Origin: Flavobacteriales bacterium
GTDB taxonomy: Bacteria > Bacteroidota > Bacteroidia > Flavobacteriales_E > Vicingaceae
Direction: 5' to 3'
Length of the DNA stretch: 48,831 bases
NCBI GenBank assembly: GCA_029262875.1
Contig: JAJCYO010000033.1
Location: 1 to 48,831 of the forward strand
Shown here: positions 3,543 to 48,831 of the stretch, piece after piece
How positions within the stretch are numbered: position 1 is the first letter of the stretch
Layout: the number at the start of each line of letters is the position of its first letter
Program-made: the position numbers and the translations under genes
The notes under the pieces: generated by a model
What the model was told of the DNA's origin: nothing
Databases searched by the model: none
Seen by the model: only the letters and a program-made list of their open reading frames with translations

Positions 3543-3599
3543 GAAATGTTTTACTTTCTAAAGGTAAGAAATAAAACAAAAGAGAAGCCTTCCATTTTT

Positions 3600-34729: not shown

Positions 34730-34831
34730 AACGTCACCTTTTCTTTCTGCATACATTAGTTGTACGAATATTACTTGAAATAAGTTTCTTAAGTAACAAA
34801 AAGGCAGTGGGTTAGACTATGTTAAGTTTTG

Positions 34832-34839
34832 TATATTAG
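34832..34839 (+). promoter_or_regulatory. -7-like element four bases from an ATC
   Basis: TATATTAG followed by CCCT and then ATC AAA at 34844. The element has one mismatch to TAnnTTTG (A for the third T). It recurs identically at 37141 and 39699. Confidence 0.45.
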
Positions 34840-34843
34840 CCCT

Positions 34844-36781
34844 ATCAAATTCATAGCCTATATATTATTGTTGATTATTCCTGGTACTGTCTATCTTCAG
34901 GTGACACCAGAAACCCAATTGACAATAGATTCACTTCAGAAAGAACTAAACATCGAACAAAGCGATTCGGTTAAACTTCGGTTAAGTGTTGCTATTTCAG
35001 AGTTGAAAATTGTGCTAAACCTTCCTTATTGGGATAGCATCCGCCAAGAAGCAAATCAACTTAACTGTCCTATTATTGAAGCCAACGCCTATAATCATAT
35101 GGGGGTTATTTTAAAGGAAAGGGGGGAGATCTTGAAGGCATTGAAATATTATCACGAAAGTCTAAAGCTGGAAGAAAAACACGGAAACCTTATGGGTTTG
35201 GGAACCTCATTGAATAATATCGGTGTGCTCTATCACAATATGGGAGAGAATGATAAAGCGATAACTTATTACAGAAGAAGCTTAAACATAGCCAAACAAT
35301 TAGAACTTCCAAACCTTGCGGATCGTTATTGGAATATTGCTACTTGGTTTGCTGAAAACAATGATTCTAGCACCTATTATTTAAGGTTAGCTGGTGATGA
35401 ATATTATAAGCTTGGAGGGGATTATGGCTTGGGATCTTACCACTATGTTTTAGGCACAATTCAGTCCAGAAGCAAGTTATATCAAATCTCAAGCGATCAT
35501 TTTAAACAAGCAATTTACCATTACAAAAAATTGAATCATTTGACTTACGTGATTCGAGCACATACTCTAATCGCTCAGAATGCCATTGAGACTGAAAATT
35601 TTCTAATGGCCGAAAAGCATGCAGACTTGGCAATGGACTTGTCTAATGACCTTGAGAATGTATTGGGAATTATGCAAGCATCAGATGTGTTGTATAAGGT
35701 TTATTTGAAAAGAGGCGATTATAAGAAAGCACTTAGTTCTTATAAATTATTCGTTACTATGAGCGATAGTGTTAAAAACATGGAGCTTGTTGCGGCAGCA
35801 ATTAGACAGAACATCTCCTACGAATATGAAAAAGAAAAGGTCATTCGAGAAACTGAATACAGCAAAGTATTAGAATTAAATAAGGAAAAGGAAAAACGTC
35901 AAAACCTAATTATAACTGCTTCTGTTATTGGCTTACTATTGGTTTTAGTATTTGCCTTTTTTATACAGAGCAAATTAAAGGTAACCCGAAAACAAAAGGA
36001 TATTATTGAAATACAAAAACAGGAAATGACGGATTCAATTCAATATGCCAAACGTATTCAGTCTGCGATTCTTCCTCAACAGGCTATTTGGTCTAACGGC
36101 ATACCGAATAGTTTTGTCTTATATAAACCAAAAGATGTTGTAGCCGGAGATTTTTATTGGATGGAGTCGGTAGCACCGACAGGCAAAAACAAATCTACAA
36201 AGGTATTGTTTGCAGCTGCAGACTGTACTGGACATGGAGTACCTGGCGCTATGGTCTCTGTGGTGTGTAATAATGCCTTAAACAGAAGTGTTAGAGAACA
36301 TGGATTGATAGACCCTGGACAAATATTGGATAAAACGAGAGAGATAGTAGTCCAAGAATTTGAAAAATCTGAAGAAGACGTTAAAGATGGAATGGACATC
36401 GCATTGTGTTCCTTAGAGGGAAATAAACTACAATATGCTGGAGCACACAACCCTCTATGGGTAATTAGAAATGGTGAGATTATTGAAACAAAAGCAAATA
36501 AACAACCTATAGGACAATTTGACAACCCAGAACCGTATACTACGCACAGTTTTGATTTAGAACCTGGAGATAGCATCTATATATTCTCAGATGGCTATGT
36601 AGATCAGTTTGGAGGCGAGAAAGGAAAGAAATTTAAGGCAAAAGCCTTTCGAGAATTACTATTAAGTATTCAGGGTAAATCCATGGAAGAACAAAAGACT
36701 ATTATCGATGATACTTTTGAAACCTGGAGAGGCTCATTGGAACAAATTGATGACGTCTGTGTTATAGGGGTTAAAGTTTGA
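34844..36781 (+). CDS. TPR-repeat membrane protein with SpoIIE/PP2C phosphatase domain, unusual start
   Basis: 645 residues if it starts at the ATC at 34844, four bases after a -7-like element; a TTG five codons upstream (34829) is the only conventional start before the signal peptide, but it sits upstream of the expected transcription start. The signal peptide reads IKFIAYILLLIIPGTVYLQ. Fewer TPRs are recognisable than in its relatives (about 75-170 and 270-320). The membrane helix (about 360-378) leads to a SpoIIE domain with the SVAPT insertion and all acidic motifs (GDFYW, AADCTGHG, KDGMD, FSDG). It is transcribed alone, ending in a hairpin. Confidence 0.9.
   Translation: MKFIAYILLLIIPGTVYLQVTPETQLTIDSLQKELNIEQSDSVKLRLSVAISELKIVLNLPYWDSIRQEANQLNCPIIEANAYNHMGVILKERGEILKALKYYHESLKLEEKHGNLMGLGTSLNNIGVLYHNMGENDKAITYYRRSLNIAKQLELPNLADRYWNIATWFAENNDSSTYYLRLAGDEYYKLGGDYGLGSYHYVLGTIQSRSKLYQISSDHFKQAIYHYKKLNHLTYVIRAHTLIAQNAIETENFLMAEKHADLAMDLSNDLENVLGIMQASDVLYKVYLKRGDYKKALSSYKLFVTMSDSVKNMELVAAAIRQNISYEYEKEKVIRETEYSKVLELNKEKEKRQNLIITASVIGLLLVLVFAFFIQSKLKVTRKQKDIIEIQKQEMTDSIQYAKRIQSAILPQQAIWSNGIPNSFVLYKPKDVVAGDFYWMESVAPTGKNKSTKVLFAAADCTGHGVPGAMVSVVCNNALNRSVREHGLIDPGQILDKTREIVVQEFEKSEEDVKDGMDIALCSLEGNKLQYAGAHNPLWVIRNGEIIETKANKQPIGQFDNPEPYTTHSFDLEPGDSIYIFSDGYVDQFGGEKGKKFKAKAFRELLLSIQGKSMEEQKTIIDDTFETWRGSLEQIDDVCVIGVKV
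36167..36202 (+). repeat. SVAPT in-frame insertion, copy 2
   Basis: Twelve codons (SVAPTGKNKSTK). They begin with the perfect palindrome GTCGGT-AGC-ACCGAC at 36166-36180, and the DNA differs from the copy at 41040 by only one base in 36. Confidence 0.8.
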
Positions 36782-36799
36782 GGCTATTTATCAATAGCC
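36782..36799. terminator. Hairpin between convergent stops
   Basis: GGCTATT-TATC-AATAGCC is a perfect 7-bp stem placed exactly between the stop of the phosphatase gene and the stop of the opposite-strand membrane protein. Neither side has a long T run, so termination is only suggested. Confidence 0.45.
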
Positions 36800-37069
36800 C
36801 TAAAAAATACCAACTGCCAACTCCACCCATACAAGAAGCAATAAAAGAATTGCACCTATAACAAGAACGACACGCACTTTTGGCTGTGCCACTATTCTAA
36901 GTAACAATTCAATAATAGAAACCGTACCAAATAGAATTGTCGCAGCTACTATAAAATCACCAATGGTCCAATTTACTTCTTGAGTAAATTGCATGGCAAC
37001 TAAAGGTGCTAAGAGTATTAAAAACACTGCACTAACCATGTAGAATAATCGTCTGTTTTTTGTAAGCAT
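36800..37069 (-). CDS. Small three-helix membrane protein
   Basis: 89 residues with three membrane helices (about 8-27, 35-57 and 66-87) and a basic N-terminus (MLTKNRRL). Small proteins with the same helix pattern and the MQFTQEVNW loop are widespread in Bacteroidetes as uncharacterised membrane proteins. Its stop sits directly beside the hairpin at 36782. Confidence 0.7.
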   Translation of the reverse strand: MLTKNRRLFYMVSAVFLILLAPLVAMQFTQEVNWTIGDFIVAATILFGTVSIIELLLRIVAQPKVRVVLVIGAILLLLLVWVELAVGIF

Positions 37070-37140
37070 AATCTTATTTTTTTATATAACGTTTGGAACA
37101 GGCAATAAGTATAATCGTCTGTTCATAAATAAGACTTTCT

Positions 37141-37148
37141 TATATTAG
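37141..37148 (+). promoter_or_regulatory. -7-like element four bases from an ATC
   Basis: TATATTAG, then CAAT, then ATC at 37153. No ATG, GTG or TTG lies in frame between the TAA at 37126 and the signal peptide, so this ATC, or the nearby ATT, must be the start unless the gene is silent. Confidence 0.5.
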
Positions 37149-37152
37149 CAAT

Positions 37153-39327
37153 ATCAAACACATCATTTACATAACCCTGTTTCTAATCTCTTTACAAGGG
37201 GTTGCGCAAGAGTTCGCCAATAAAAATTATTATTTAGTGGACAGTTTGGTTTTAGAAGAACTGACAGAAGGAGATAGGGAGTTATTAGAGAGTTCTTTAA
37301 AACGTTATTACAGTGCTGCAGATGACACCAGTAAAATAAATGCATTAGACCATATTTGCATGAACATGATGCATGATGATTGGTCAAAGTATCAATATGT
37401 ATTAAAAGATGTTGTTGAAGCAGCTTTGAAAAAAGAGAATTCAAAAAAAGTTGAACAAAGGTTATTGGTTTCTTTATCTGAATCTTACAATAATATAGGA
37501 TTCATTCAAATGGGGCTTGGAGAAATTGATAATGCTTTAGAGAACTATCACATTAGTTTAAAAATAAAGAAAAAAATAGGAAACAAAAAAGGAGTAGCTG
37601 CTGCTTACAATAATATAGGGGGCATTTATGATACGCAAGGAAACATCCCTAAAGCACTTAAATACTACCTTTCATCCTTAAAAATAAGGGAACAATTAGG
37701 TGATCCTAAAGATATTGCACATTCATTAAATAATATTGGTTATATCCACAATGCACAAGAAAACTTCCAAGATGCTTTAGTCTATTATAAAAAATCCCTA
37801 AAGAAATACCAAGAGGCGGGTGATAAGAAGGGAGCAGCTAATACTATTTACAATATTGGTGGCATCTATTTTTCATTAGGAGACTTTGACGAAGCGATAA
37901 TTAATTACGACAAATCTTTAGTTCTTAAAGAAGAAATAGGAGATAAGAAAGGTATAGCATACTCCTTAAATGCTGCTGGATTACTTTATTATAAGCAAGG
38001 AGATATAAATAAAGGAATAGATTATGGCAATAGAGCTTTAGCCATAAGATTGGAAAGAAAAGATAAAGAAGGAATTAGTCAGACTTCCTATTTGTTAGGG
38101 CTAATTCACTTCGAAAGTGGCGATTTGACCAAGGCTTATAAGCATTCAATGACAAGCATGGAGATGGCAAAAATGACCGGATTTCCTTCAGATATCAAAA
38201 AGGCAGCTTTATTGTTAAGCAAGATTTATGAAAAACAAGGCAACGGAATGAAAGCCTTACAGATGCATAAACTCCATGATCAAATGAAGGATAGCATAAA
38301 TAATGAAAACACCCAAAAAGCGTCCATCAGACAGCAGGCTAAGTATGAATATGAAAAAGCTCAAGCCGTAACAGATAAAGAACATGAAAAACAATTGGAA
38401 ATTGAAAAGGAAGCTAAGGCGAAGCAAAGGGTAATTATCTATGCGGCAAGTGGCGGTTTAGGATTGGTAGGTATCTTTTTGTTCTTTGTAATGAACAGGT
38501 TAAAAATAACTCGAAAACAGAAAGCCGTTATTGAACAACAAAAAGAGGAAGTAGAAGAAGCGCACCAAGAGATTAGGGATAGTATAAGCTATGCGAAAAG
38601 GATTCAATCGGCCATCTTACCACCAATAAAAATGGTAAAGGAATACTTAAATGAATCCTTCATCTTATACAAGCCAAAAGATGTAGTAGCTGGGGACTTT
38701 TATTGGATGGAGTCGGTAGCACCGACAAGCAAAAACAAATCTACAAAGGTATTGTTTGCTGCTGCTGATTGTACAGGACATGGAGTGCCAGGAGCTATGG
38801 TAAGTGTTGTTTGTAACAATGCCTTAAATCGTTCAGTTCGGGAGCACGGTTTAACCGAACCAGGAAAAATACTGGATAAGACCAGAGAGATTGTCATCAA
38901 GGAATTTGAAAAATCTGAGGAAGAAGTTAAAGATGGTATGGACATCGCAATCTGTTCTTTAGAAGGAAATAAACTAAAATATGCAGGAGCAAACAACCCT
39001 TTATGGATCATTAGAAATGGAGCCATTATAGAAACAAAAGCGAACAAACAGCCTATAGGTCAATTTGACAACCCTGAACCTTACACCACGCATAGTTTTG
39101 ATTTAGAGCCTGGAGATAGCATCTATATATTCTCCGATGGTTATGTCGACCAATTTGGTGGAGAAAAAGGAAAGAAATTCAAGGCAAAAGCCTTTAGAGA
39201 ATTACTACTATCCGTTCAGGACAAAGCTATGGAAGAACAAAATGTCATTATTGACGAAGCATTTGAAACCTGGAGAGGTTCATTGGAACAAATTGATGAC
39301 GTTTGTGTTATAGGTGTTAAGCTTTAA
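37153..39327 (+). CDS. TPR-repeat membrane protein with SpoIIE/PP2C phosphatase domain, ATC start
   Basis: 724 residues if read from the ATC at 37153. Automatic callers would begin at the GTG at 37237, which loses the whole signal peptide (IKHIIYITLFLISLQGVAQ). The frame is bounded by a TAA at 37126 and contains no conventional start before the signal peptide. Six to eight TPRs span about residues 110-330, then a membrane helix, coiled coil and SpoIIE domain with the SVAPT insertion and intact acidic motifs. The mature start (EFANKNYYLVDSLVLEEL) closely matches the neighbours at 29157 and at the right edge. Confidence 0.9.
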   Translation: MKHIIYITLFLISLQGVAQEFANKNYYLVDSLVLEELTEGDRELLESSLKRYYSAADDTSKINALDHICMNMMHDDWSKYQYVLKDVVEAALKKENSKKVEQRLLVSLSESYNNIGFIQMGLGEIDNALENYHISLKIKKKIGNKKGVAAAYNNIGGIYDTQGNIPKALKYYLSSLKIREQLGDPKDIAHSLNNIGYIHNAQENFQDALVYYKKSLKKYQEAGDKKGAANTIYNIGGIYFSLGDFDEAIINYDKSLVLKEEIGDKKGIAYSLNAAGLLYYKQGDINKGIDYGNRALAIRLERKDKEGISQTSYLLGLIHFESGDLTKAYKHSMTSMEMAKMTGFPSDIKKAALLLSKIYEKQGNGMKALQMHKLHDQMKDSINNENTQKASIRQQAKYEYEKAQAVTDKEHEKQLEIEKEAKAKQRVIIYAASGGLGLVGIFLFFVMNRLKITRKQKAVIEQQKEEVEEAHQEIRDSISYAKRIQSAILPPIKMVKEYLNESFILYKPKDVVAGDFYWMESVAPTSKNKSTKVLFAAADCTGHGVPGAMVSVVCNNALNRSVREHGLTEPGKILDKTREIVIKEFEKSEEEVKDGMDIAICSLEGNKLKYAGANNPLWIIRNGAIIETKANKQPIGQFDNPEPYTTHSFDLEPGDSIYIFSDGYVDQFGGEKGKKFKAKAFRELLLSVQDKAMEEQNVIIDEAFETWRGSLEQIDDVCVIGVKL
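38713..38748 (+). repeat. SVAPT in-frame insertion, copy 3
   Basis: Twelve codons (SVAPTSKNKSTK) with the perfect palindrome at 38712-38726. It differs from copy 2 by one base in the insertion, although the flanking phosphatase codons differ at many third positions. Confidence 0.8.
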
Positions 39328-39354
39328 GTTAACTCCCATAATTTATATGTTCTC

Positions 39355-39570
39355 CTAACCGTAACTTTTCGAATTGCTAAAGAACCCGAACAGCATAATA
39401 ATGTAAGAAACAGCAAAAATTCCCGCATACCAATACCAATCTAAGCCCAGCAATACTGGAAAAAATTTAACGAGAAGTAACACGGCCGATGCTACACCGA
39501 TTTTTAGTGCAGAGAAATGATACCATTTCATTTTTTTGGCACGCTTTTCAGCCCAGCTCAAAATGCTCAT
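39355..39570 (-). CDS. Small membrane protein
   Basis: 71 residues with a basic amphipathic N-terminus (AEKRAKKMKWYHF) and two membrane helices (about 20-40 and 46-63). No family recognised. It is isolated between two plus-strand phosphatase genes. The start is the ATG at 39570, with a weak -7-like TAAATTAT five bases upstream. Confidence 0.6.
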   Translation of the reverse strand: MSILSWAEKRAKKMKWYHFSALKIGVASAVLLLVKFFPVLLGLDWYWYAGIFAVSYIIMLFGFFSNSKSYG

Positions 39571-39666
39571 AGTTTATAATTTAATTGATTTTGCCACTAA
39601 ATTAAGATATCGTTTAACTGCTTCAAATGACCTGTATCAGTTTATAAATACTATAAGGGATTAATT

Positions 39667-39695
39667 ATTCCCCTTGAGAAAAAGTGAAGGGGAAT
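39667..39695 (+). other. Inverted repeat just upstream of a phosphatase promoter
   Basis: ATTCCCCTT (39667-39675) and AAGGGGAAT (39687-39695) form a perfect 9-bp stem with an 11-base loop. It ends four bases before the -7-like element at 39699, where an operator would block or recruit polymerase. Confidence 0.5.
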
Positions 39696-39698
39696 TAT

Positions 39699-39706
39699 TA
39701 TATTAG
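39699..39706 (+). promoter_or_regulatory. -7-like element four bases from an ATC
   Basis: TATATTAG, then CAAC, then ATC at 39711. The match includes the following ATCAAACAC, shared with the promoter at 37141 almost base for base. Confidence 0.5.
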
Positions 39707-39710
39707 CAAC

Positions 39711-41654
39711 ATCAAACACATTATCTACATAGTCTTTTTACTATTCTCCATTCAAGGTCTTGCACAAGAAAACCAAGCTGTTCGCAATGATATTTTGGCG
39801 TTAGAAGAAATGGGGAATCGCTACTATGAGGAAGGCAAATATTCTATATCAGAAAAATCCTTTTTAGCAGCAATAGAAAAGGCCCAAGAAATTGACGACC
39901 TTAATTTAGAAATTAAAATTACAGGAAATTATACAGGGAAGTTCATTAACATTCGATCATTGGCTAAAAGTATTGAAATGGTGTTAGAGTTGAAAGAACG
40001 TACTGTTGCCGAACACAATGACACCTTATTGTTCAAGGTTTATGGCATGATTGCACAGCAATACGGCACCTTAGGTGAAAATATTAGCACAAGAAAAGAG
40101 ATCGCTGACTCCATGTTAATTATTGCACAAAATATAGGTGACACGAATATGTTGAGGCGTGCCTATTTTAGTTTAGGAACGGCTACTGATGGAATGGAAG
40201 CAATAGAAAGTTATAAGGAATGCCTAAGCTATGCAGAATGGGAAAAGGATAAGAAATTCATCAGTTCTGTTTACAACAATATGAGCCTACGATATAGGGC
40301 CATCAACGAATTAGATAAAGCATTATCATATGCTGATAGTGCCTATATAGCATCTTTTGAAACAGATCGGTTAGAAGGTATGGCAGCTGCAAGATACAGA
40401 GCTGCAGAAGCCTATTATTTTAAAGGAGAATTTAAGAAGTCGGTTAAATATGGAAAAGAAGCCTTAGCTATATTTCAAAAAGCTGGTATTTTAAGAAGAC
40501 AAAACAGCAGTGCCCATGTGGTTTCTGCTGCCTACAAAGAATTAGGGAATTATAAAGAATCGCTAAAGTACTTCGAAATGAAATCTAATTTGACAGATAG
40601 CATGTTGAAGTTGAACCAAAATAGAGAAGCTGAATTTGTAGGAAGAAAATTTCAATATGAACTTACTCAGAAAAGAGACAGTACAGTACTCGCTCAAGAG
40701 AGGAGCTTGAATGCCTTAGAACTGGAAAATCTAAACAACAAACTATCGAAAGAACGGATGCAAAAATACTTGTTGTTTGGTGGAATTGCCATGGTTTTCG
40801 GTTTTGCCTTATTTATTTGGATAGGCTTTCAACGAAAAAGAAAAGCGAACTTACTCATTGCTCAGCAGAAACAATTGGTGGAAGAAAAGAATGAGGAAAT
40901 TATGGATTCCATTGCTTACGCAAAACGAATACAGTCAGCTATTTTGCCTCCAGCCAAATTGGTAAAGGAATACTTAAAAGAAAGCTTCATCTTATACAAA
41001 CCAAAAGACGTTGTTGCAGGAGATTTTTACTGGATGGAGTCGGTAGCACCGACAGGCAAAAACAAATCTACAAAAGTATTATTCGCAGCAGCAGATTGTA
41101 CTGGACACGGAGTACCTGGAGCCATGGTAAGTGTTGTGTGTAATAATGCTTTAAACAGAAGTGTTAGAGAACATGGTTTAACCGACCCAGGAAAAATTTT
41201 AGATAAGACGAGAGAAATTGTCATTCAAGAATTTGAGAAATCAGAAGAAGAAGTTAAAGATGGGATGGACATTGCAATATGTACGTTAGAAGGAAACAAA
41301 TTACAATATGCAGGAGCACATAATCCATTATGGATCATTAGAAATGGTGAAATCATAGAAACCAAAGCCAATAAGCAGCCTATAGGGCAGTTTGACCATC
41401 CAGAGCCTTACGTAACACATAGTTTTGAGCTGAAGAAAGGAGATGGCCTCTATATATTTTCGGATGGTTATGTTGATCAATTTGGAGGAGAAAAAGGAAA
41501 GAAGTTTAAGGCCAATGCTTTTAGAGAATTGCTACTATCCATTCAAGGCAAAACGATGGAAGATCAAAAAACAATCATGGACAATACTTTTGAAACTTGG
41601 AAAGGAGCCTTAGAGCAAATCGATGATGTTTGCGTGATTGGAGTAAGGGTGTAA
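39711..41654 (+). CDS. TPR-repeat membrane protein with SpoIIE/PP2C phosphatase domain, unusual start
   Basis: 647 residues if it starts at the ATC at 39711. A GTG nine codons upstream (39684) is in frame and open, but it lies inside the inverted repeat and upstream of the -7 element. The signal peptide is IKHIIYIVFLLFSIQGLAQ. The sensor half has only a few recognisable TPRs and is the most divergent of the set, with a longer helical region before the membrane helix (about 354-372). The SpoIIE domain carries the SVAPT insertion and all acidic motifs. It ends with the shared QIDDVCVIGVRV tail. Confidence 0.9.
   Translation: MKHIIYIVFLLFSIQGLAQENQAVRNDILALEEMGNRYYEEGKYSISEKSFLAAIEKAQEIDDLNLEIKITGNYTGKFINIRSLAKSIEMVLELKERTVAEHNDTLLFKVYGMIAQQYGTLGENISTRKEIADSMLIIAQNIGDTNMLRRAYFSLGTATDGMEAIESYKECLSYAEWEKDKKFISSVYNNMSLRYRAINELDKALSYADSAYIASFETDRLEGMAAARYRAAEAYYFKGEFKKSVKYGKEALAIFQKAGILRRQNSSAHVVSAAYKELGNYKESLKYFEMKSNLTDSMLKLNQNREAEFVGRKFQYELTQKRDSTVLAQERSLNALELENLNNKLSKERMQKYLLFGGIAMVFGFALFIWIGFQRKRKANLLIAQQKQLVEEKNEEIMDSIAYAKRIQSAILPPAKLVKEYLKESFILYKPKDVVAGDFYWMESVAPTGKNKSTKVLFAAADCTGHGVPGAMVSVVCNNALNRSVREHGLTDPGKILDKTREIVIQEFEKSEEEVKDGMDIAICTLEGNKLQYAGAHNPLWIIRNGEIIETKANKQPIGQFDHPEPYVTHSFELKKGDGLYIFSDGYVDQFGGEKGKKFKANAFRELLLSIQGKTMEDQKTIMDNTFETWKGALEQIDDVCVIGVRV
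41040..41075 (+). repeat. SVAPT in-frame insertion, copy 4
   Basis: Twelve codons (SVAPTGKNKSTK), with the perfect palindrome at 41039-41053. Nearly identical to copy 2 at the DNA level. Confidence 0.8.
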
Positions 41655-41670
41655 GAAAGTATCCGACAAC

Positions 41671-42819
41671 CTACTGAACTAAGTATTGAAAATTTCCTTT
41701 GAGTACAAAAGTACCCTGGCTGTTAAATAATTGACCAGGTATCTGAATAAATCCAGCATTCGCAGGAGTCCTTCCCTCAATTGTTCCATAAGTGTCTAAC
41801 ATTTCTGCAACGGCAGTTCCCTGTAAATCAGTAATGGCAGATGTAATGTTTGAAGCTACTGGTAAACTTATGGTGAATTGTGTTGGAGCACCAGCTGCCC
41901 CAACAGTAACTTGAACAGTAAAAGAAACATTAACAATGTTACCCGTTCTCATCCATAGGCCAGCAGCATTCACAGAAGAAACATAATTGGAAACATTGGC
42001 AAAAGTGGGGGTGTAGGTTCCAGAGGTTCCTCCTGCAGGTGGTGGTAACCATGAAGCATTTCCTGCCGCATCAGACGTCAATACATCTCCTGCTGCTTGT
42101 GTGCCGTCAACCAATTGAAAAGTTCCTACCACATCTAACTTAGCAGAAGGAGCATTCGTACCAACACCTACATCTCCACCTCCTGTAATAGTCATTCGGG
42201 TAAGGCTTTGGGTTTGAAAATGAATGTCGGCAAAAGCAGTAAGACTATATTTATTTACGATAAACAAATCTGAGGTTGTTCCAGGTTCATATCGAATTTC
42301 AGCTTCGTTATTAAGAAAGTTACCTCCGAAACGTAAAATCGCATCTGGTCCCACAAAGCCTTGAGTTGAAATATGAGTAATGACATCAGAACTACCATTG
42401 TGCACCATCAATTTAGTGCTTGGTGTTGTAATACCTATACCAACATTGCCCGACACTGCAGAATACTGATTGACTCCACTAATTGTCCAATCGGCATCAG
42501 CTGCTGCTCCTCCATCCAATAAACGTGCCCATACTGTTCCATCCCAATAGTAATAACCGGGTGTAACATCATTCACTGTAGCGGTATTATATACCAATAA
42601 ACTATTGGCTACTGTGGCTCCAATTGGAGCGTTTGAAGTTGTTATGGTTAAGCCAACCCTTGGAATCAAAAGTCCCTTATCAGTAGCTGAGATATCAAGC
42701 AAAGCGCTCACATTTGGTGCTGCGCCAGTAGCATTGATGCCCACATTTTGAGACATAGTTGTAGCGCTAATAAACAGTAGGATAATTAATTGGGGAAATT
42801 TAGGGAGCTTAAAAAGCAT
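41671..42819 (-). CDS. Secreted adhesin-like protein
   Basis: 382 residues from the ATG at 42819; a longer frame begins 18 codons upstream but crosses the promoter. Signal peptide to about residue 24. The start of the mature part (NVGINATGAAPNVSALLDIS) and the repeats VGIGITTPSTKLMV and VGVGTNAPSAKLDV are typical of large Bacteroidetes surface proteins that resemble phage tail fibres. The C-terminal 110 residues form a compact beta-rich domain (TYTPTFANVSNYV to the end). I see no T9SS sorting motif and cannot name a ligand. Confidence 0.75.
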   Translation of the reverse strand: MLFKLPKFPQLIILLFISATTMSQNVGINATGAAPNVSALLDISATDKGLLIPRVGLTITTSNAPIGATVANSLLVYNTATVNDVTPGYYYWDGTVWARLLDGGAAADADWTISGVNQYSAVSGNVGIGITTPSTKLMVHNGSSDVITHISTQGFVGPDAILRFGGNFLNNEAEIRYEPGTTSDLFIVNKYSLTAFADIHFQTQSLTRMTITGGGDVGVGTNAPSAKLDVVGTFQLVDGTQAAGDVLTSDAAGNASWLPPPAGGTSGTYTPTFANVSNYVSSVNAAGLWMRTGNIVNVSFTVQVTVGAAGAPTQFTISLPVASNITSAITDLQGTAVAEMLDTYGTIEGRTPANAGFIQIPGQLFNSQGTFVLKGNFQYLVQ

Positions 42820-42823
42820 CAAC

Positions 42824-42831
42824 CAAAAATA
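42824..42831 (-). promoter_or_regulatory. -7 element four bases from the start of the adhesin-like gene
   Basis: The minus strand reads TATTTTTG, then GTTG, then ATG at 42819. A full consensus match at exactly four-base spacing. Confidence 0.6.
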
Positions 42832-42978
42832 TGAAATAAATTTAACATTTTTTTTAAAGTTTAATTTTAGCAAACAAAAATTAACTTTTGTTAAAAAACA
42901 ATTTATAAGTTGACGGTCCTCATAATCCGAAAGACAATTTCACTCTAACTTAGCTGCATAATCTTTAAAACAAGTATT

Positions 42979-43179
42979 ATGAAAGCACTTATACAAATAA
43001 CAACTATTTTATGTGGAACAGTATTATTAACTAGTTTTCTGTATCATGATGATTCGGCCACAACAATCGGGAAAAATTCAATTCAATTAGTTGAGAGTGA
43101 AGACCTTTCAATTGCTCGAGGTACCGAAGCTTATGTAGAAGGTTACAGAATATTCAGAGGTATAAGATGTAATAATTGA
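42979..43179 (+). CDS. Small secreted protein
   Basis: 66 residues with a signal peptide (about 1-22). The mature peptide is short and has no clear motif (IARGTEAYVEGYRIFRGIRCNN), with one cysteine. No family recognised. It stands alone, divergent from the adhesin-like gene. Confidence 0.5.
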   Translation: MKALIQITTILCGTVLLTSFLYHDDSATTIGKNSIQLVESEDLSIARGTEAYVEGYRIFRGIRCNN

Positions 43180-43264
43180 TTGTTGCCGTATTCAGTTAGT
43201 TTAAGTCAAAAGGTTTTACTTGTTGGTGCTCTGTCAAATAAGTTTAACGGGAAGGGAGAATATT

Positions 43265-43510
43265 CTAATCTACTTTCAAAATGAATAGGAGAGAAACCGC
43301 CAATATTCCTGCTACAACAATGACCAACATTAACACCAACCTTTGTTTCTTTTCTTTCTCCTTCTTGAGTTTAAACGCCTCCAGAAATTGCTCCTTCTCA
43401 ACTTGGTTAACCTTACCATCTTGCATAGGAGTATCCATATCACTATAAAGAATTTTCTGTTTACCCATTAACTTTCTTCTTCTTGGTTTTATGGTACCCC
43501 AATATGACAT
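43265..43510 (-). CDS. Small C-terminally anchored membrane protein
   Basis: 81 residues from the ATG at 43510; an ATG 14 codons later (MGKQKILYSDMDTPMQDG) is as plausible. The N-terminal part is charged and helical and the C-terminal 25 residues are a membrane helix (LVLMLVIVVAGILAVSLLFIL). It starts 16 bases after the stop of the T9SS gene. No family recognised. Confidence 0.6.
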   Translation of the reverse strand: MSYWGTIKPRRRKLMGKQKILYSDMDTPMQDGKVNQVEKEQFLEAFKLKKEKEKKQRLVLMLVIVVAGILAVSLLFILKVD

Positions 43511-43525
43511 CTCTTCTGTTTTAGA

Positions 43526-44452
43526 TTAATCCTTCACTACCTTTTTAGTAATCACCTTACCATCCACTTCAAGTTGCAAGAAGTAAATACCAGTAGGATA
43601 GGAAGATAGGTCTAACACTAGCTGATTGGTTGGTGGTGCCTTAGTTAGTAATAGCTGTCCAAAGCTATTCCTTATAGTTACTGATGCAATGTTCCCTTCT
43701 TCTAAGGTGATGGATAGCATGCCTGATATTGGATTGGGATAGATGGATATGGAAGATGATGACGGCTCATCTATTCCAATGGTGGAAGTAACACTTACAT
43801 CATCAATCCAATAATATCCTCTACCTAATAATCCAGCTGGATTGGTTTGAATTGTATCAGTGTTAGCATCACTTAAAAAATTTCCTATGGTAATATGATC
43901 TTCACCACCTGAAGCAATATAAGTTCCAGATACTAATGTCCATGATGTTGTATCTGAAATTATGTTTCCAGTTGGATTGGCAACTTGTGGAATAAATGGC
44001 AGTAAATAACCTCCAACACCAGCAACTGATCCAGTAGAAATATACACTCCCATACCATCAACTGAATAATTATTAACTTCTGAAGGAGATACATAAACCT
44101 CTATGTTATAGGTCTCTCCAGCAGATAGAGGAGAGGTCAATTGCACCTGAATATATTCACGTACATCTGAAGAGCCATAAGTGTATATCCCTGCATATCC
44201 TTGCCCTGTACGCGCTAACTGGTAACCACTTAGGTTATTTGGAACACCAACAGTATTGGTATTACAAGCATTATAATAATCAGATGAGGCATTATTAGTA
44301 TTTGGGGGCATAAACCAAGGAGTTGCTAAAGACAACTGACTGGATACTGTAGGACAGCTTGAATAATTTTCAAAACTAGGATTAGGAACTAAGTTTTGTC
44401 CAACTAATGTAATAGAACAAAAGAAGATTAATATAATTAACAAGTGCTTCAC
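43526..44452 (-). CDS. T9SS cargo protein with carbohydrate-binding-like domain
   Basis: 308 residues from the GTG at 44452, which lies exactly four bases after a -7 element; a TTG at 44467 would place the start inside the promoter. Signal peptide (VKHLLIILIFFCSITLVGQ). The mature part opens with LVPNPSFENYSSCPT, the jelly-roll pattern (NPSFE) used by Bacteroidetes carbohydrate-binding or gliding-related surface proteins, with strands to about residue 215. The last 85 residues are a type A sorting domain. Its C-terminal segment matches those of the neighbours at 44492 and 46686. The role of the mature domain is unknown. Confidence 0.85.
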   Translation of the reverse strand: MKHLLIILIFFCSITLVGQNLVPNPSFENYSSCPTVSSQLSLATPWFMPPNTNNASSDYYNACNTNTVGVPNNLSGYQLARTGQGYAGIYTYGSSDVREYIQVQLTSPLSAGETYNIEVYVSPSEVNNYSVDGMGVYISTGSVAGVGGYLLPFIPQVANPTGNIISDTTSWTLVSGTYIASGGEDHITIGNFLSDANTDTIQTNPAGLLGRGYYWIDDVSVTSTIGIDEPSSSSISIYPNPISGMLSITLEEGNIASVTIRNSFGQLLLTKAPPTNQLVLDLSSYPTGIYFLQLEVDGKVITKKVVKD

Positions 44453-44456
44453 TGTA

Positions 44457-44464
44457 TAAATATA
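44457..44464 (-). promoter_or_regulatory. -7 element four bases from a GTG start
   Basis: The minus strand reads TATATTTA, then TACA, then GTG at 44452. One mismatch to consensus, at the recurring four-base spacing. Confidence 0.55.
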
Positions 44465-44491
44465 CAACTTTTAGGATTAGTTATTTATCAG

Positions 44492-45691
44492 TTATTCCTT
44501 TACTACCTTTTTAATAATCACCTGTCCATCCACTTCAAGCTGTAGGAAGTAAATCCCAGTAGGATAGGAGGATAGGTTTAATGCTGCTTGATTGGTTGCT
44601 TTTATCACATTAACCAACATTAGCTCTCCTAAAGCGTTTCTGATGGTTACAGATGCAATGGTTCTTTCTTTTATAGCTATGAATAGTTGGCCGGATGTCG
44701 GGTTGGGGAACACGCTTATATTAAACGATTGCTCAACATCTTCTATTCCAACACCACCTCCATTAGAAGTTTTAATAATAGAGCCATTCATACCAACTGC
44801 GTATCCAAGGTTTTCATCCACAAAAAAACAATCAAACAGCGGCTCGGAAACAGATGTGTTTTGGCTAATCCATGTTGTTCCACCATCAGGAGTATGCAGC
44901 ATTATGCTTGATGAAGAGAAACCGCCAACAGCATAACCCTTTTGTGGAGTAGGGAACTTCAAAGCGTAAAGTCCATCTGTTGCTAACGTATGGATAATGT
45001 TCCAATTTAATCCGCCATCTACTGTTTTTAAAATATTTTTATTGATCGCACCTGTACTACAGACATATCCAGTATCTGGGTGCGTAAAATAAACAGACCC
45101 AAACTCCGCAAATGCACTCGAATGAACATTGTTCCAATTTGCACCAGCATTAGTGGTCTTCATAATTGCGTCAGATTGGCCTAACCCCACAACATATCCT
45201 GTGTTTACATCATTAAAAAAAAGAGATACTGTTCCAGAAGCCCCTCCACTTAAGGCCAAGGGCACCCAATTAACTCCACCATTTGTGGTTTTCCAGCAAG
45301 TAGCCATCGAACCGGCAACATAACCCGTGTTCGCATCTAAAAAGTAGATTTCAGAAAGAGCAGCTCCAGAATTAGATTGAGATGACCACGTTATTCCAGC
45401 ATCGGAAGTAGTTATGATTAGCCCACTATCACCACATGCCCATCCTGTAGTAGGATTAATAAAGAAAACAGAATTCAGATCTTTACCAGTACCCGAAACC
45501 ATGTTCAACCAATTTAGACCACCATCAATGGTTCTAAGAATAGTTCCATTATATCCAACGACATATCCGGTATCTGCCGTTGGAAAATCAACCCCTCTAA
45601 GCCATTCAGTGCTACCAGAATTTAAGCTGGTCCATTGTCCAAAGCACATTGAAGAAGAGATAACAAGTATTGCGGTTAGTATTTTTTTCAT
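44492..45691 (-). CDS. YCF48/BNR-repeat beta-propeller protein with T9SS sorting domain
   Basis: 399 residues. Signal peptide to about residue 18 (CFGQ). The body has six or seven repeats of a BNR/YCF48-like propeller, each with TxDGGxNW or TTNAGANW and a following GYxxG strand, as in photosystem assembly factor Hcf136 and many secreted Bacteroidetes proteins. The C-terminal 85 residues are a type A sorting domain (SVFPNPTSGQLF and the shared tail). Partners are unknown. The ATG lies four bases from a full-consensus -7 element; GAGG between them is too close to be a Shine-Dalgarno site. Confidence 0.9.
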   Translation of the reverse strand: MKKILTAILVISSSMCFGQWTSLNSGSTEWLRGVDFPTADTGYVVGYNGTILRTIDGGLNWLNMVSGTGKDLNSVFFINPTTGWACGDSGLIITTSDAGITWSSQSNSGAALSEIYFLDANTGYVAGSMATCWKTTNGGVNWVPLALSGGASGTVSLFFNDVNTGYVVGLGQSDAIMKTTNAGANWNNVHSSAFAEFGSVYFTHPDTGYVCSTGAINKNILKTVDGGLNWNIIHTLATDGLYALKFPTPQKGYAVGGFSSSSIMLHTPDGGTTWISQNTSVSEPLFDCFFVDENLGYAVGMNGSIIKTSNGGGVGIEDVEQSFNISVFPNPTSGQLFIAIKERTIASVTIRNALGELMLVNVIKATNQAALNLSSYPTGIYFLQLEVDGQVIIKKVVKE

Positions 45692-45695
45692 CCTC

Positions 45696-45703
45696 CAAAT
45701 ATA
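45696..45703 (-). promoter_or_regulatory. -7 element four bases from the start of the propeller gene
   Basis: The minus strand reads TATATTTG, then GAGG, then ATG at 45691. A full consensus match. Confidence 0.6.
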
Positions 45704-45855
45704 TATATTAAGCGTATAGTTTAAAGAATTAATTGATGAAGTGATGAATTGACTTTATAAAAGGCATCAATAAGGTACCTTTTGGTGTAATCGAATTCTC
45801 AATTTTTATTTAGAAAAGCGTAAGAAAGGTATTGTAATTTGAATAAATGAATTCT

Positions 45856-45863
45856 TAAATTCG
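45856..45863 (+). promoter_or_regulatory. -7 element four bases from a GNAT start
   Basis: TAAATTCG, one mismatch to TAnnTTTG, then CAGC, then ATG at 45868. Confidence 0.5.
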
Positions 45864-45867
45864 CAGC

Positions 45868-46389
45868 ATGAAATTAAGCTTAACACAAACCACTGATATT
45901 CCTGCAATTATGTCTGTAGTAAAGGATGCACAGGAGTATTTATTTGAGCAGGGAATAGATCAATGGCAGGACGGGTATCCAGACAAGAAACAAATTGAGC
46001 TTGACATTACAAATGATGAGAGCTATGTGGTAAAAGACAGTTCAGCAGCAATTTTGGGAACAACCGTTTTGAGCACGAGAATTGAATCAACTTACAACAA
46101 AATTGAGGGAAATTGGATGACGTCTTCCAATGAAAAATATGGTGTAATTCATAGATTAGCTGTTGGGAAGCAATTTCGTAAGTTAGGTGTAGCCAAGTTC
46201 GTTTTCCAAGTATGTGAAGCTAAACTGCTAGAAGCAAACATTGAAAGCATGAGGATTGACACGCATGAAGAAAATAAAGGAATGCAAAAATTAATAACCG
46301 GATTAGGCTACAAGTATTGTGGTGTTATATACTTAGACAATGGAGATAAAAGGTTGGCTTATGAAAAGGTATTTAGCCAACCAGGTTAA
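45868..46389 (+). CDS. GNAT N-acetyltransferase
   Basis: 173 residues. The GNAT fold runs throughout: TTDIPAIMSVVKDAQEYLFEQGIDQWQDGYP helix, an IHRLAVGKQFRKLGVAKF acetyl-CoA loop (Q/RxxGxA pattern), and MRIDTHEENKGMQKLITGLGY near the end. A close match to GNATs of unknown substrate common in Bacteroidetes and Firmicutes. It is single and preceded by a leaderless-type promoter. Confidence 0.88.
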   Translation: MKLSLTQTTDIPAIMSVVKDAQEYLFEQGIDQWQDGYPDKKQIELDITNDESYVVKDSSAAILGTTVLSTRIESTYNKIEGNWMTSSNEKYGVIHRLAVGKQFRKLGVAKFVFQVCEAKLLEANIESMRIDTHEENKGMQKLITGLGYKYCGVIYLDNGDKRLAYEKVFSQPG

Positions 46390-46417
46390 CATCATACGGT
46401 TATTTACGAATAATGAC

Positions 46418-46425
46418 TATTTTTA
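46418..46425 (+). promoter_or_regulatory. -7 element of the small lipoprotein gene
   Basis: TATTTTTA, one mismatch to consensus, with a short leader to the ATG at 46448. Confidence 0.35.
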
Positions 46426-46447
46426 AGAACTGAATAAAAAATAGACT

Positions 46448-46672
46448 ATGAAATCACCAATTATAATAATTTTAATAGGGTTAATGGCTTTAACAACCGC
46501 TTGTTCTAAAAAGGAAAAATGTACATGTGTTACATCTGTAGAAGTGAGTGGACAAGTAAGTACTTCAACTTCAGAAACACGCGAACTTGAAAAAGATGAG
46601 AATTGCGAATTAAGTACTTCCGTTGGAGTTCCAGGAGTCACGACTACATCAGTTGTTTGTACCTTAGACTAA
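46448..46672 (+). CDS. Small lipoprotein
   Basis: 74 residues with a lipoprotein signal ending in TTAC, so Cys19 should be lipidated. The mature part is short, Ser/Thr/Val-rich and contains four further cysteines (CTC, C and C near the end) that may form disulfides. Function unknown. Confidence 0.65.
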   Translation: MKSPIIIILIGLMALTTACSKKEKCTCVTSVEVSGQVSTSTSETRELEKDENCELSTSVGVPGVTTTSVVCTLD

Positions 46673-46685
46673 ATGGCTTACAATC

Positions 46686-47372
46686 TCATTCCTTCACCAC
46701 TTTTTTAGTAACCACCTGACCATCCACTTCAAGTTGTAAGAAGTAAATCCCGGTAGGATAGGAGGACAGGTCTAATGCTACTTGATTAGTTGATAGTGTC
46801 TTATCAGCTAACAGAAGCTGCCCTAAGCTGTTTCTAAGAGTTACCGATGTAGCAGAGCCTTCTTCTAATGCGATAGATAGCAGTCCTGATGTTGGGTTAG
46901 GGTAGATGTTGATGTTACTTTTGAAGTTATTGGGTTCTGTGGCAGTTGGTCCCAATACAGTAACCGTGTATCCATTACATGGCCAATTCTCTAAAGCAAA
47001 AGCAAAACTACAGTGAATGCTTTCAACACATTCCATTGTATATATACCAGGTGTAACGAATGCTGGAGTTTTGACTGTAGTAATTAGATTAAATACGTTG
47101 GTAGATACTGGTAGAAGAACATCCATTGGAGAACCACCATTAAATTTAATGTCATGAGTTGTACCAACATAACCTTGAGGAGAAAACATGGATTCACAAG
47201 TAAATTGAATAGAATCGCCAACATTTATGGTTAAATGTTGTGGTGTAAAAATTGAAGAATCTCCAGAGCAAAATGTTCCGCTGATTGGAGAGATACACAC
47301 CTCATGTTCTGCTTGCCCAAAAGAAAGGATACTTAACATCATTCCTGCAAAAAAAAGTGATAACTTGTTCAT
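46686..47372 (-). CDS. T9SS cargo protein with cupredoxin-like domain
   Basis: 228 residues. Signal peptide to about residue 19 (SFGQ). The mature domain (about 22-140) has the strands INVGDSIQF and THDIKFNGG, and the PGIYTMECVESIHCSFAF segment resembles a cupredoxin metal-site loop, but the ligand spacing is not the canonical CxxxxHxxxM, so copper binding is uncertain. The last 85 residues form a type A sorting domain nearly identical to that of the genes at 43526 and 44492. Confidence 0.8.
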   Translation of the reverse strand: MNKLSLFFAGMMLSILSFGQAEHEVCISPISGTFCSGDSSIFTPQHLTINVGDSIQFTCESMFSPQGYVGTTHDIKFNGGSPMDVLLPVSTNVFNLITTVKTPAFVTPGIYTMECVESIHCSFAFALENWPCNGYTVTVLGPTATEPNNFKSNINIYPNPTSGLLSIALEEGSATSVTLRNSLGQLLLADKTLSTNQVALDLSSYPTGIYFLQLEVDGQVVTKKVVKE

Positions 47373-47556
47373 AGTATATATATTATGGTTTATAGGCTAA
47401 GTTAGTACCTAACCAATTAGCTAACAATGAGAATAATCATATTTTGGAGTTGCCGAATTTTGAAGTAAACCAACACTCTTATAGTGGAAATACTTGAAGC
47501 AAAGAAAAGGGGGTATCTTATAATGCCGAGCTTTTGACGGTAGGGGATGGAGGTAT

Positions 47557-48337
47557 CTATTCTACTTCCTTATATTTATAACAGACTACTTTAAAGCCAA
47601 CTTTTTCATTTTTTTCAGCATCTACTCCATAGGATTCAGTGATTAAGATTACTGGACTTCTAGATGGGGCAGCCTTTTTCTGCAACTTAATTAAAGCTTT
47701 TTGTTGAAGGTCATATAACACGGTACTTCTTGGCATTATGCTTGATTTTTTCTTAGCTGGACCTCCAGAATAAATCGTAAGCTCTTCTCCTTTATCCATT
47801 TCAGCTACGAATTCTTTATTTCGTACCACTAATACATTCCTAAAGTCTGTTGGACCCCTTATGATTATTTTCTTGTCCATTGGGTTTTGAAAGTATTTCT
47901 TAAGAATTGGGATAATACCCTCTGAGACACAATTATTAAGCGAGGCTTTTTTACCCTGATATCCATTAAAAGCAGTAGATGATGCATTAAACTTCCTTGT
48001 TTTGAGTATCAGCAATCCAGATTTAGAATCAAAAACAGAAGCTTCAACACCTCCAGTAACATTAAAATCAATGATCAATGAAGACTCATTTATTGATTTC
48101 ACTATCGTAAACTCATCAGTATTAGAAACAACCTCAATTATCCTTGGATCATCCGATTTCCAAACACTCTTATCTGTAGTTGAAACAAATACCTTATAAG
48201 ATGCTTCTTTTTTCTTTTCTTCAACAACCGTATGTATTAACACTGTCATTTTCCACAATGCTTTTAAACCTATCATCTTGTCCATAAGACAAGGCTATCA
48301 TAAAAAGAAAAGGAGTTATAAGTATTGCTTTTTTCAT
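47557..48337 (-). pseudogene. Secreted protein gene with frameshift after the signal peptide
   Basis: A signal peptide in one frame (from the ATG at 48337: MKKAILITPFLFMIALSYGQDD) continues as RFKSIVENDSVNTYGC to a TGA at 48221-48223. The rest of the protein lies in the +1 frame, open from about 48285 to the stop at 47557, reading EEKKKEASYKVFVSTTDKSVW onwards. The two pieces join only if one base is removed or skipped somewhere in 48222-48285. Either the gene is broken, the base call is wrong, or a frameshift is used. The mature sequence (about 220 residues, beta-rich, with YSGGPAKKKSS) matches no family I recognise. A -7 element (TACATTTA) is at 48362-48369. Confidence 0.65.
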
Positions 48338-48422
48338 CTGCATCATATGATTTTATAAGTTTAAATGTACAACTTTTATTCATTGCTGCATTGCTGAACT
48401 GAATAAAGTGTTCTCCAAATTA

Positions 48423-48600
48423 GTGATGCAATCACATTAGAGGTCTGTAAGCCGAAAGTAAATAGCGTATGCGAGGCTTACTACACAGCTTAGAAAAGCC
48501 AAATTCCCACCGATGGTTGGATGTGTAACCTACTAAGGAATTAGCTGCGAAGCTGAGGGAGAGAACAGCAAATACTGTTTGAGACTTCTATCAGATTTGT
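48423..48600 (+). ncRNA. Structured non-coding segment, possible group II intron 5' remnant
   Basis: No reading frame, but dense short inverted repeats: GTGAT-GCA-ATCAC (48423-48435), GTAAGCC with GGCTTAC (48447-48453 and 48475-48481), GGTT with AACC (48515-48518 and 48527-48530), TACACA with TGTGTA (48482-48487 and 48522-48527; this excludes the previous pair in part), and AGCT-GCGA-AGCT (48543-48554), a stem closed by a GNRA tetraloop. The run GCGAAGCTGAGGGAGAGAAC and the following CAGCAAATACTG resemble domain I of bacterial group II introns. No reverse-transcriptase gene and no domain V follow before the next gene at 48683, so at most a 5' remnant remains. Other structured RNAs are possible. 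The rest of 48347-48670 shows nothing else I can name. Confidence 0.4.
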
Positions 48601-48670
48601 ATATATTGCATTTCTGAACACCTGATAACCTTGAGAAGCAATGACAAGGATGGAAGTGGCAAGTAATTAT

Positions 48671-48678
48671 TAAATTAG
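48671..48678 (+). promoter_or_regulatory. -7-like element four bases from an ATC
   Basis: TAAATTAG, then CACC, then ATC at 48683. In the coding frame this element begins with TAA, so translation cannot come from upstream. A short open frame (ATG at 48641 to this TAA, ten codons) lies directly ahead. Confidence 0.5.
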
Positions 48679-48682
48679 CACC

Positions 48683-48831
48683 ATCAAATACACCATCTAC
48701 ATATTACTTTTTTTAATCTCATTTAATGGATTAGCTCAAGAGTTTGCTGATAAAGAGTATTACCTGGTGGATAGTCTGATTATTGAATACTTGTCTGAAT
48801 CAGATTTCCAACTCCTTGATAGCTGTTTAGC
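48683..48831 (+). CDS. TPR-SpoIIE family protein, N-terminal part, ATC start
   Basis: Open from the ATC at 48683 to the right edge. The signal peptide (IKYTIYILLFLISFNGLAQ) and mature start (EFADKEYYLVDSLIIEYL) match the genes at 29157, 31346 and 37153, so it is a further member of the family; the phosphatase part would lie beyond the window. The frame begins immediately after a TAA (48671-48673), and the only codons between that stop and the hydrophobic core are ATT AGC ACC ATC AAA TAC ACC ATC TAC ATA. No ATG, GTG or TTG is available. Confidence 0.8.
   Translation, partial: MKYTIYILLFLISFNGLAQEFADKEYYLVDSLIIEYLSESDFQLLDSCL

Follow-up and report, generated by a model that had tools for sequence, protein, structure and literature searches.

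The 48,831 bases considered here (the window) are an entire contig (C33; GenBank JAJCYO010000033.1) of an uncultured Flavobacteriales bacterium whose genome assembly, GCA_029262875.1, amounts to 3.94 Mb in 173 contigs. The contig carries several members of a family of TPR-SpoIIE genes, probably for sensor phosphatases, in four of which (genes A to D) the start position is apparently occupied by ATC. Genes A, B and C encode TPR repeats and a C-terminal PF07228 domain; gene D is truncated. The family is a large one: a search with one ATC gene returned 53 matching stretches, from a few dozen related genes, in the organism's own genome, and between 20 and 74 first-look candidates per genome were seen in 14 genomes of the genus. 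The features of immediate concern are these:

34832..34839 (+): -7-like element of gene A, TATATTAG, with a spacing like that described for Flavobacterium johnsoniae promoters in the cited excerpt (PMC6847099)
34844..36781 (+): gene A, TPR-SpoIIE; proposed ATC start at 34844-34846, then AAA; in-frame TTG at 34829 as an alternative
37126..37128 (+): in-frame TAA closing the frame 5' of gene B
37141..37148 (+): -7-like element of gene B, TATATTAG
37153..39327 (+): gene B, TPR-SpoIIE; putative ATC start at 37153-37155, then AAA; the next conventional codon, GTG at 37237, lies past the signal peptide
39699..39706 (+): -7-like element of gene C, TATATTAG
39711..41654 (+): gene C, TPR-SpoIIE; proposed ATC start at 39711-39713, then AAA; in-frame GTG at 39684 as an alternative
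48671..48678 (+): -7-like element of gene D, TAAATTAG, whose first three bases double as an in-frame TAA stop
48683..48831 (+): gene D, a paralogue with a putative ATC start, then AAA; cut by the contig end, leaving the N terminus only (49 codons)

Two sister genes of the family serve for comparison:

29157..31349 (+): TPR-SpoIIE gene with a GTG start
31346..33544 (+): TPR-SpoIIE gene with an ATG start that overlaps the preceding stop

The first-pass annotation of the window had proposed that these four genes begin at ATC, and its description of the DNA is accurate. The box, the four-base spacer and ATC AAA lie as placed at 34844, 37153, 39711 and 48683 (TATATTAG three times, TAAATTAG once), the in-frame stops at 37126 and 48671 are both there, and the genes at 37153 and 48683 indeed have no ATG, GTG or TTG ahead of the signal peptide. 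The window alone does not force closure of the upstream frame for the other two, since a TTG stands five codons upstream of 34844 and a GTG nine codons upstream of 39711; were either of these the start, the -7 element would fall within the coding sequence. The claim that ATC falls precisely at residue 1 of the sister genes was assessed by counting codons from the start to the Gln that ends the signal peptide, and it is exact against the ATG gene at 31346 (19 codons, as in the gene at 37153) and nearly so against the GTG gene at 29157 (22 codons). The occupation of one and the same position by ATG, GTG and ATC in different family members fits a start codon and supports the interpretation of AUC initiation.

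What is unusual is not the motif itself but the fact that it coincides with residue 1 in a single gene family. In the 3.94-Mb genome the pattern TANNTTWGNNNNATNAAA matches 64 times, and its reversal 33 times. Thirteen of these carry ATC: the four in the window head TPR-SpoIIE genes, and the nine outside it head open reading frames (ORFs) of 2-67 codons, so that for this spacing and second codon no ATC start was found genome-wide in any other family. ATA or ATT is present in 35 matches, and among the 31 inspected there are seven ORFs of at least 96 codons, in each of which either an ATG or TTG follows 2-9 codons later or an in-frame start comes before; the remaining 16 matches carry ATG.

A comparison with related loci, as the first-pass annotation had advised, turned out in favor of the ATC start, as the layout recurs in other genomes of the genus and in another genus. 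From the 14 genomes of the genus, 30 loci and 80 further stretches were read (most of the matches listed), as were the best 78 loci of 410 candidates in a wider set of contigs. A mechanical listing picked out the frames in which no conventional start precedes the hydrophobic core (33 among 143 ORFs of the genus set, 10 among 108 of the wider set), and many of these are fragments or false calls in which the start lies just behind the first hydrophobic stretch. A later pattern search covered 46 genomes of the order, all of one family. Its RTS pattern was modelled on the known ATC genes and is thus biased (9 ATC among 13 matches, with ATG 2, GTG 2 and GTC 0), and the sole new gene that it contributed is that of G042; an ATN pattern run over the same 46 genomes gave, among the matches listed, mostly chance hits, and served only to spot candidates. 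In all, the layout of box, four bases and ATC AAA was recorded in 14 rows that make up 12 gene groups: the four genes of the window, two in G002, one each in G004, G008, G012 and G013 of the same genus, one in G042 of the other genus, and the genes of three Flavobacteriales metagenome-assembled genomes (MAGs) counted as one. Two further loci (L213 and L223) have N termini identical to those of L088 and L078, are apparently the same genes, and were not recounted. Outside the window the rows read as follows:

G002, L089: TACATTTG AATT ATC AAA
G002, L150: TATTTTTA ATTT ATC AAA; a MORN variant repeat, with no TPR match
G004, L091: TATTTTTA GTAC ATC AAA
G008, L088: TAAATTAG CTTC ATC AAA
G012, L163: TATATTG GGCT ATC AAA; an imperfect box, or a three-base spacer if the box is TATATTGG
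G013, L078: TATATTAG CTGA ATC AAA
MAGs C_MB131, AF_MB37 and K_MB401, L215/L216/L218: TATATTTA CTGT ATC AAA
G042, L389 (other genus): TATATTAG CTGT ATC AAA; from the later pattern search

The layout fits 11 of the 12 groups, and L163 only with a shortened box. In 10 of the 12 an AUN codon is the only start available before the signal peptide, with no ATG, GTG or TTG upstream in frame; this, like the position of the ATC and its recurrence, is read directly from the DNA. The N termini of the ATC genes align as signal peptides with those of the ATG and GTG members. The genomes are drafts, and at least some of those with ATC genes are MAGs; assembly error was considered and rejected, as the same codon error across 12 gene groups is not credible.

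Several other family members are of interest in this connection. Loci L172 (G011) and L173 (G012) have no conventional start ahead of the hydrophobic core, and ATT is their likeliest start. At L203 (G012), ATT AAA follows TATATTTA at a distance of four bases, and a TTG lies upstream. The family genes at loci L216 and L218, near-identical and from two MAGs, differ at one and the same leaderless position, where one has GTG and the other ATG; rapid turnover of the start codon is thus possible in this family.

An argument from the rows themselves (ATC in 14 of 14) is circular, the rows having been picked for ATC, and was replaced by counts free of that selection. The test took 237 family ORFs, of which 11 are cut off by the end of a contig or locus, and checked each in-frame codon as far as the signal-peptide core for a box TAnnTT[TA][GA] lying 2-7 bases upstream; gene D (cut), L163 (box misfit) and L389 (a later find) were left out, and the three near-identical MAG genes were taken in. 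At a spacing of four bases there are 70 cases, comprising ATG 19, GTG 15, ATC 11, ATT 2, TTG 2 and a remainder spread over 18 codon types. At spacings of 2, 3, 5 and 6 bases the cases number 23, 29, 23 and 29, of which 0, 1, 0 and 0 are ATC; spacing 7 gives 70, of which 33 are AAA, the second codon, and one is ATC. The family thus has a promoter-like element at a fixed distance, the 4-nt spacing exceeding 2, 3, 5 and 6, and ATC accordingly holds the place of ATG and GTG; the family departs from known leaderless genes, with their AUG or GUG starts, in having AUC in 11 of the 70 cases. Among AUN codons other than AUG at this spacing, ATC accounts for 11 of 13 (9 of 11 with the MAG trio taken as one), ATT for two and ATA for none, and as ATC makes up 16% of Ile codons in the genome sample, its excess at the 4-nt position has a P of about 3e-6.

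The ATC genes have been conserved over some evolutionary distance. L078 and L389, from two genera, share 67% protein identity over 507 residues, with a nonsynonymous divergence (dN) of 0.22 and a synonymous divergence (dS) of 1.15, and 48 of 91 four-fold sites of shared residues differ; the two have 11 of 12 box-plus-spacer bases in common (TATATTAGCTG) as well as ATCAAA, whereas positions -13 to -100 match at only 35% in an ungapped comparison. The pattern by which L389 was found required TTWR, RTS and ARA, so that this comparison is free of search bias only for the remaining bases of the box and for the spacer. For L215 and L218, dN is 0.004 and dS 0.036-0.039. These figures show purifying selection on the genes, not on the start itself. 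On a FastTree phylogeny of 209 family genes (79 of 206 inner branches well supported, the state of L163 labelled by hand), the state ATC needs at least eight changes, and the only reading drawn from this is that it is probably not one inherited accident. Recombination cassettes had been considered for the repetition of the motif in tandem paralogues and were dropped, as the genes in other genomes keep the motif.

The explanation that these observations make probable is that the ATC genes are translated by genuine AUC initiation on leaderless mRNAs made from the -7 element, and that they are low-level sensor-phosphatase genes with a potential response to IF3. AUC initiation is well supported by the comparisons above; leaderless initiation is likely. 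The excerpted account of F. johnsoniae gives the -7 element as TAHHTTTG, its G being at -5, and puts many transcription start sites four or five bases past it (PMC6847099); with a spacing of four bases the +1 position would therefore fall on the A of ATC and the mRNA would begin 5'-AUCAAA. In the proposed sequence of events, RNA polymerase would use the -7 element directly upstream and begin the transcript 4-5 bases on, leaving AUC at, or within one base of, the 5' end. An initiator tRNA with the ordinary CAU anticodon would pair at the first two codon positions only, and such weak AUC starts, normally discriminated against by IF3, would hold the sensor-phosphatases at low levels, from which output could rise when IF3 is limiting. 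The predicted products have a signal peptide, a TPR domain and a SpoIIE-type phosphatase.

A number of observations weigh against this explanation. The boxes are usually one base off the published consensus (L089 fits in full, L163 poorly), and most end in TTAG or TTTA rather than TTTG. Over 156 gene starts from 400 kb of the genome plus the window, no clear 4-nt peak is seen: loose boxes number six at 4 nt, equally many at 22 nt, and 0-3 at other spacings. This agrees with the low leaderless share in Flavobacterium, where, in the portions of the papers cited, leaderless mRNAs are a minority, amounting in F. psychrophilum to 5.5% (PMC9723704), and leaders longer than 10 nt make up 87% of those in F. 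johnsoniae (PMC6847099). A 5'-terminal AUC figures as a knock-out in E. coli in the cited text (PMC4965119); in the passages cited on mycobacteria it is a presumed negative control, and AUC with a Shine-Dalgarno sequence gives low but detectable initiation (PMC4633059). Nor is translation proved by the open frame that runs from ATC to the first conventional codon behind it. Of 226 family ORFs, 22 have open extensions of at least 25 codons, where 34 would be expected in the absence of constraint, and the 346 codons without a stop that separate ATC from that conventional codon were dropped as evidence, the frames having been chosen for openness. Finally, one gene of the window has a probable ATC start that is not leaderless:

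27362..28726 (-): TPR protein without a SpoIIE domain; probable ATC AAA CAT start at 28726, the ATC lying 11 nt past the stop of the upstream ORF

Its hydrophobic core is preceded by no conventional start, and the gene, which may be a shortened paralogue, lies so close behind the upstream ORF that it would not be leaderless.

Some of these points favor a rival in which AUC is indeed the start codon but a more distant upstream promoter supplies the mRNA with an ordinary leader; the -7-like box would then be incidental, or else a second promoter. Leaders are present on most Flavobacterium mRNAs, the sampled gene starts have no genome-wide 4-nt peak, and the 28726 gene seems to be ATC-started behind another ORF. 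Such a leader is nonetheless unlikely for the family as a whole, as the 4-nt spacing is common to ATG and GTG members and stands out over 2, 3, 5 and 6, and as the box has been kept between the two genera of L078 and L389 where the remaining upstream sequence has not.

It is very improbable that translation begins upstream, at ATT, TTG or GTG, and that the ATC is merely an internal Ile codon. Besides the TTG of gene A and the GTG of gene C, the first-pass annotation had offered an ATT three codons upstream as a second candidate; in the window genes this ATT is part of the -7 element. In-frame stops lie 0-1 codon ahead of the ATC in four genes (TGA in L078, TAG-TAC in L091, TAA-TTT in L150 and TGA-ATT in L089), and upstream starts are therefore excluded as a general explanation. 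For L078, L091 and L150, where the stops also dispose of any upstream ATT, such a start is refuted unless TAC or TTT initiates; L089, in which ATT directly precedes ATC, could still use it. The abundance of ATC at the 4-nt position, far above what Ile codon use predicts, likewise argues for a start codon.

Hardly more credible is a start at the first conventional codon downstream, which would give proteins without a signal peptide. Such codons are available 28-71 codons on (8-9 in gene A and L389), and the open frame that precedes them is, as noted, no longer than chance allows; the intervening stretch, however, encodes hydrophobic signal-peptide cores that align with those of the ATG and GTG members and are alike across genera. 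Least credible is that the ATC copies are unexpressed, as decaying genes or silent recombination cassettes that have lost their start: many paralogues per genome might make some losses tolerable, and the tree has its eight or more changes between ATC and other states, but the frames are complete (562-786 codons), dN/dS of about 0.1-0.2 across the genes argues for expression (not for the start itself), and decay would be expected to yield varied codons, not ATC repeatedly.

The TPR-SpoIIE family leans to weak starts: with a guess that favors ATG, its 209 members divide into ATG 129, TTG 32, GTG 27 and 21 with none (the 21 include false calls), compared with ATG 196, TTG 15 and GTG 9 among 220 genes of the genome sample. 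A codon-usage scan of 220 ORFs from the 400 kb and the window, which has little power for short N termini, ranked infC first; next came L299, apparently an antisense ORF, and L309, a short one, with gene B in 17th place; a hydrophobic-core filter retained 10 ORFs, including gene B and the 28726 gene. At the infC loci (L331-L340, including L336) the apparent start is ATA GCT AAR in nine and ATC GCT AAA in one of 10 readable genomes of the genus, and a conventional codon is first reached 14 to 150 codons past ATA or ATC; G013 has only the 3' part of the gene, and G004, G005 and G009 gave no match. AUN starts therefore seem to be functional in the lineage, and an infC that itself starts at AUA or AUC lends indirect support to the idea of IF3 sensitivity.

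It is plausible that the ATC genes respond to IF3, and their expression may be both low and IF3-sensitive. In the cited excerpt, model leaderless mRNAs are inhibited by raised IF3 and enhanced by infC mutants with relaxed codon choice; other work described there has IF3 stimulating at low dose, or required, for leaderless mRNAs (PMC9031893). An altered initiator tRNA was also considered: of the seven loci read, four, from relatives, carry a tRNA-Met of the ordinary kind with the anticodon CAT, and three lack a tRNA; nothing firm follows from this. Neither a 13-base anticodon-stem pattern nor a relative's initiator found an initiator tRNA-Met in the window's assembly, where loss in assembly or search is likely. 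The tRNA search gave at least 29 matches (150 of 318 candidates scored), and 24 of the 29 loci were typed; the typed set lacks several common anticodons, and no GAU initiator was seen in it. The tRNA used may well be the ordinary one.

Two other parts of the window may be mentioned. At one further member of the family, a different codon occupies the position of ATC:

1575..3542 (-): sister family gene with a conventional TTG at 3542, in which TACCTTTA-GAAA puts GTA (3554-3552) in the ATC position

The strand here reads TACCTTTA-GAAA-GTA AAA CAT (3552-3566), and the TTG comes four codons after the GTA. Between TPR-SpoIIE genes, 43526-47372 (-) encodes three proteins whose C termini are type IX secretion tails (PF18962); one of the three has YCF48-like repeats.

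A leaderless transcript gives the ribosome little besides its first codon, which is AUG in the systems studied and GUG in some species, and Bacteroidota mRNAs are without Shine-Dalgarno sequences. A conserved 5'-AUC, if true, would break the AUG/GUG rule for leaderless mRNAs and would raise the question of what lets the Bacteroidota ribosome accept AUC. In practical terms, gene finders limited to ATG, GTG and TTG would clip the signal peptide from such proteins, and the gene set lends itself readily to testing whether IF3 controls chosen genes other than infC. A wider proposal is put forward tentatively, its chances falling somewhat short of even: that there is a conserved class of bacterial genes with mRNAs that begin exactly 5'-AUC and are translated from that AUC, a family-specific low-expression device that has arisen repeatedly in TPR-SpoIIE sensor phosphatases of this Flavobacteriales lineage and has IF3 control in common with infC.

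A literature search, from which subscription journals were largely out of reach, found no conserved bacterial family with an AUC start (the reported ATC starts being mostly mitochondrial) and nothing that combines an AUC start codon with leaderless mRNA. Proteomics of Deinococcus deserti is said to have found non-canonical starts that include ATC, a natural AUC start; those would be isolated genes, in contrast to the conserved family here. The E. coli pcnB gene has an AUU start that is thought to limit expression of the enzyme; it is a single gene with a leader, in contrast to AUC repeated within one family. Like the ATC genes, infC has an AUN near-cognate start (AUU, AUA or AUC), and in E. 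coli it is under IF3 autocontrol (known in part from titles cited in PMC9845219). The infC of the genus differs in starting mostly at AUA and in having, at the loci read, no -7 box four bases before the start, whereas the ATC genes look leaderless and nearly always have AUC. Leaderless mRNAs of mycobacteria, Deinococcus and others likewise have a promoter element directly 5' of the start codon, with a predicted transcription start on its first base; they differ in their AUG or GUG starts, and ATC serves there, in the passages cited, as a presumed negative control (PMC4633059, PMC9031893). For Neisseria, the cited text describes a disrupted gene, its function unclear, in which ATG has changed to ATC (PMC10210955). 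For the L12ae gene of the archaeon Staphylothermus marinus, an ATC start has been proposed, and was likewise argued from alignment with relatives; that is a lone archaeal gene with no conserved family and, in the passage cited, no promoter argument (PMC2678158). The products themselves resemble the TPR-SpoIIE (PP2C-type) sensor phosphatases of Bacteroidota at large, with the same C-terminal PF07228, TPR repeats and signal-peptide-like N terminus, and are set apart by the AUC start that a subset of them appears to use.

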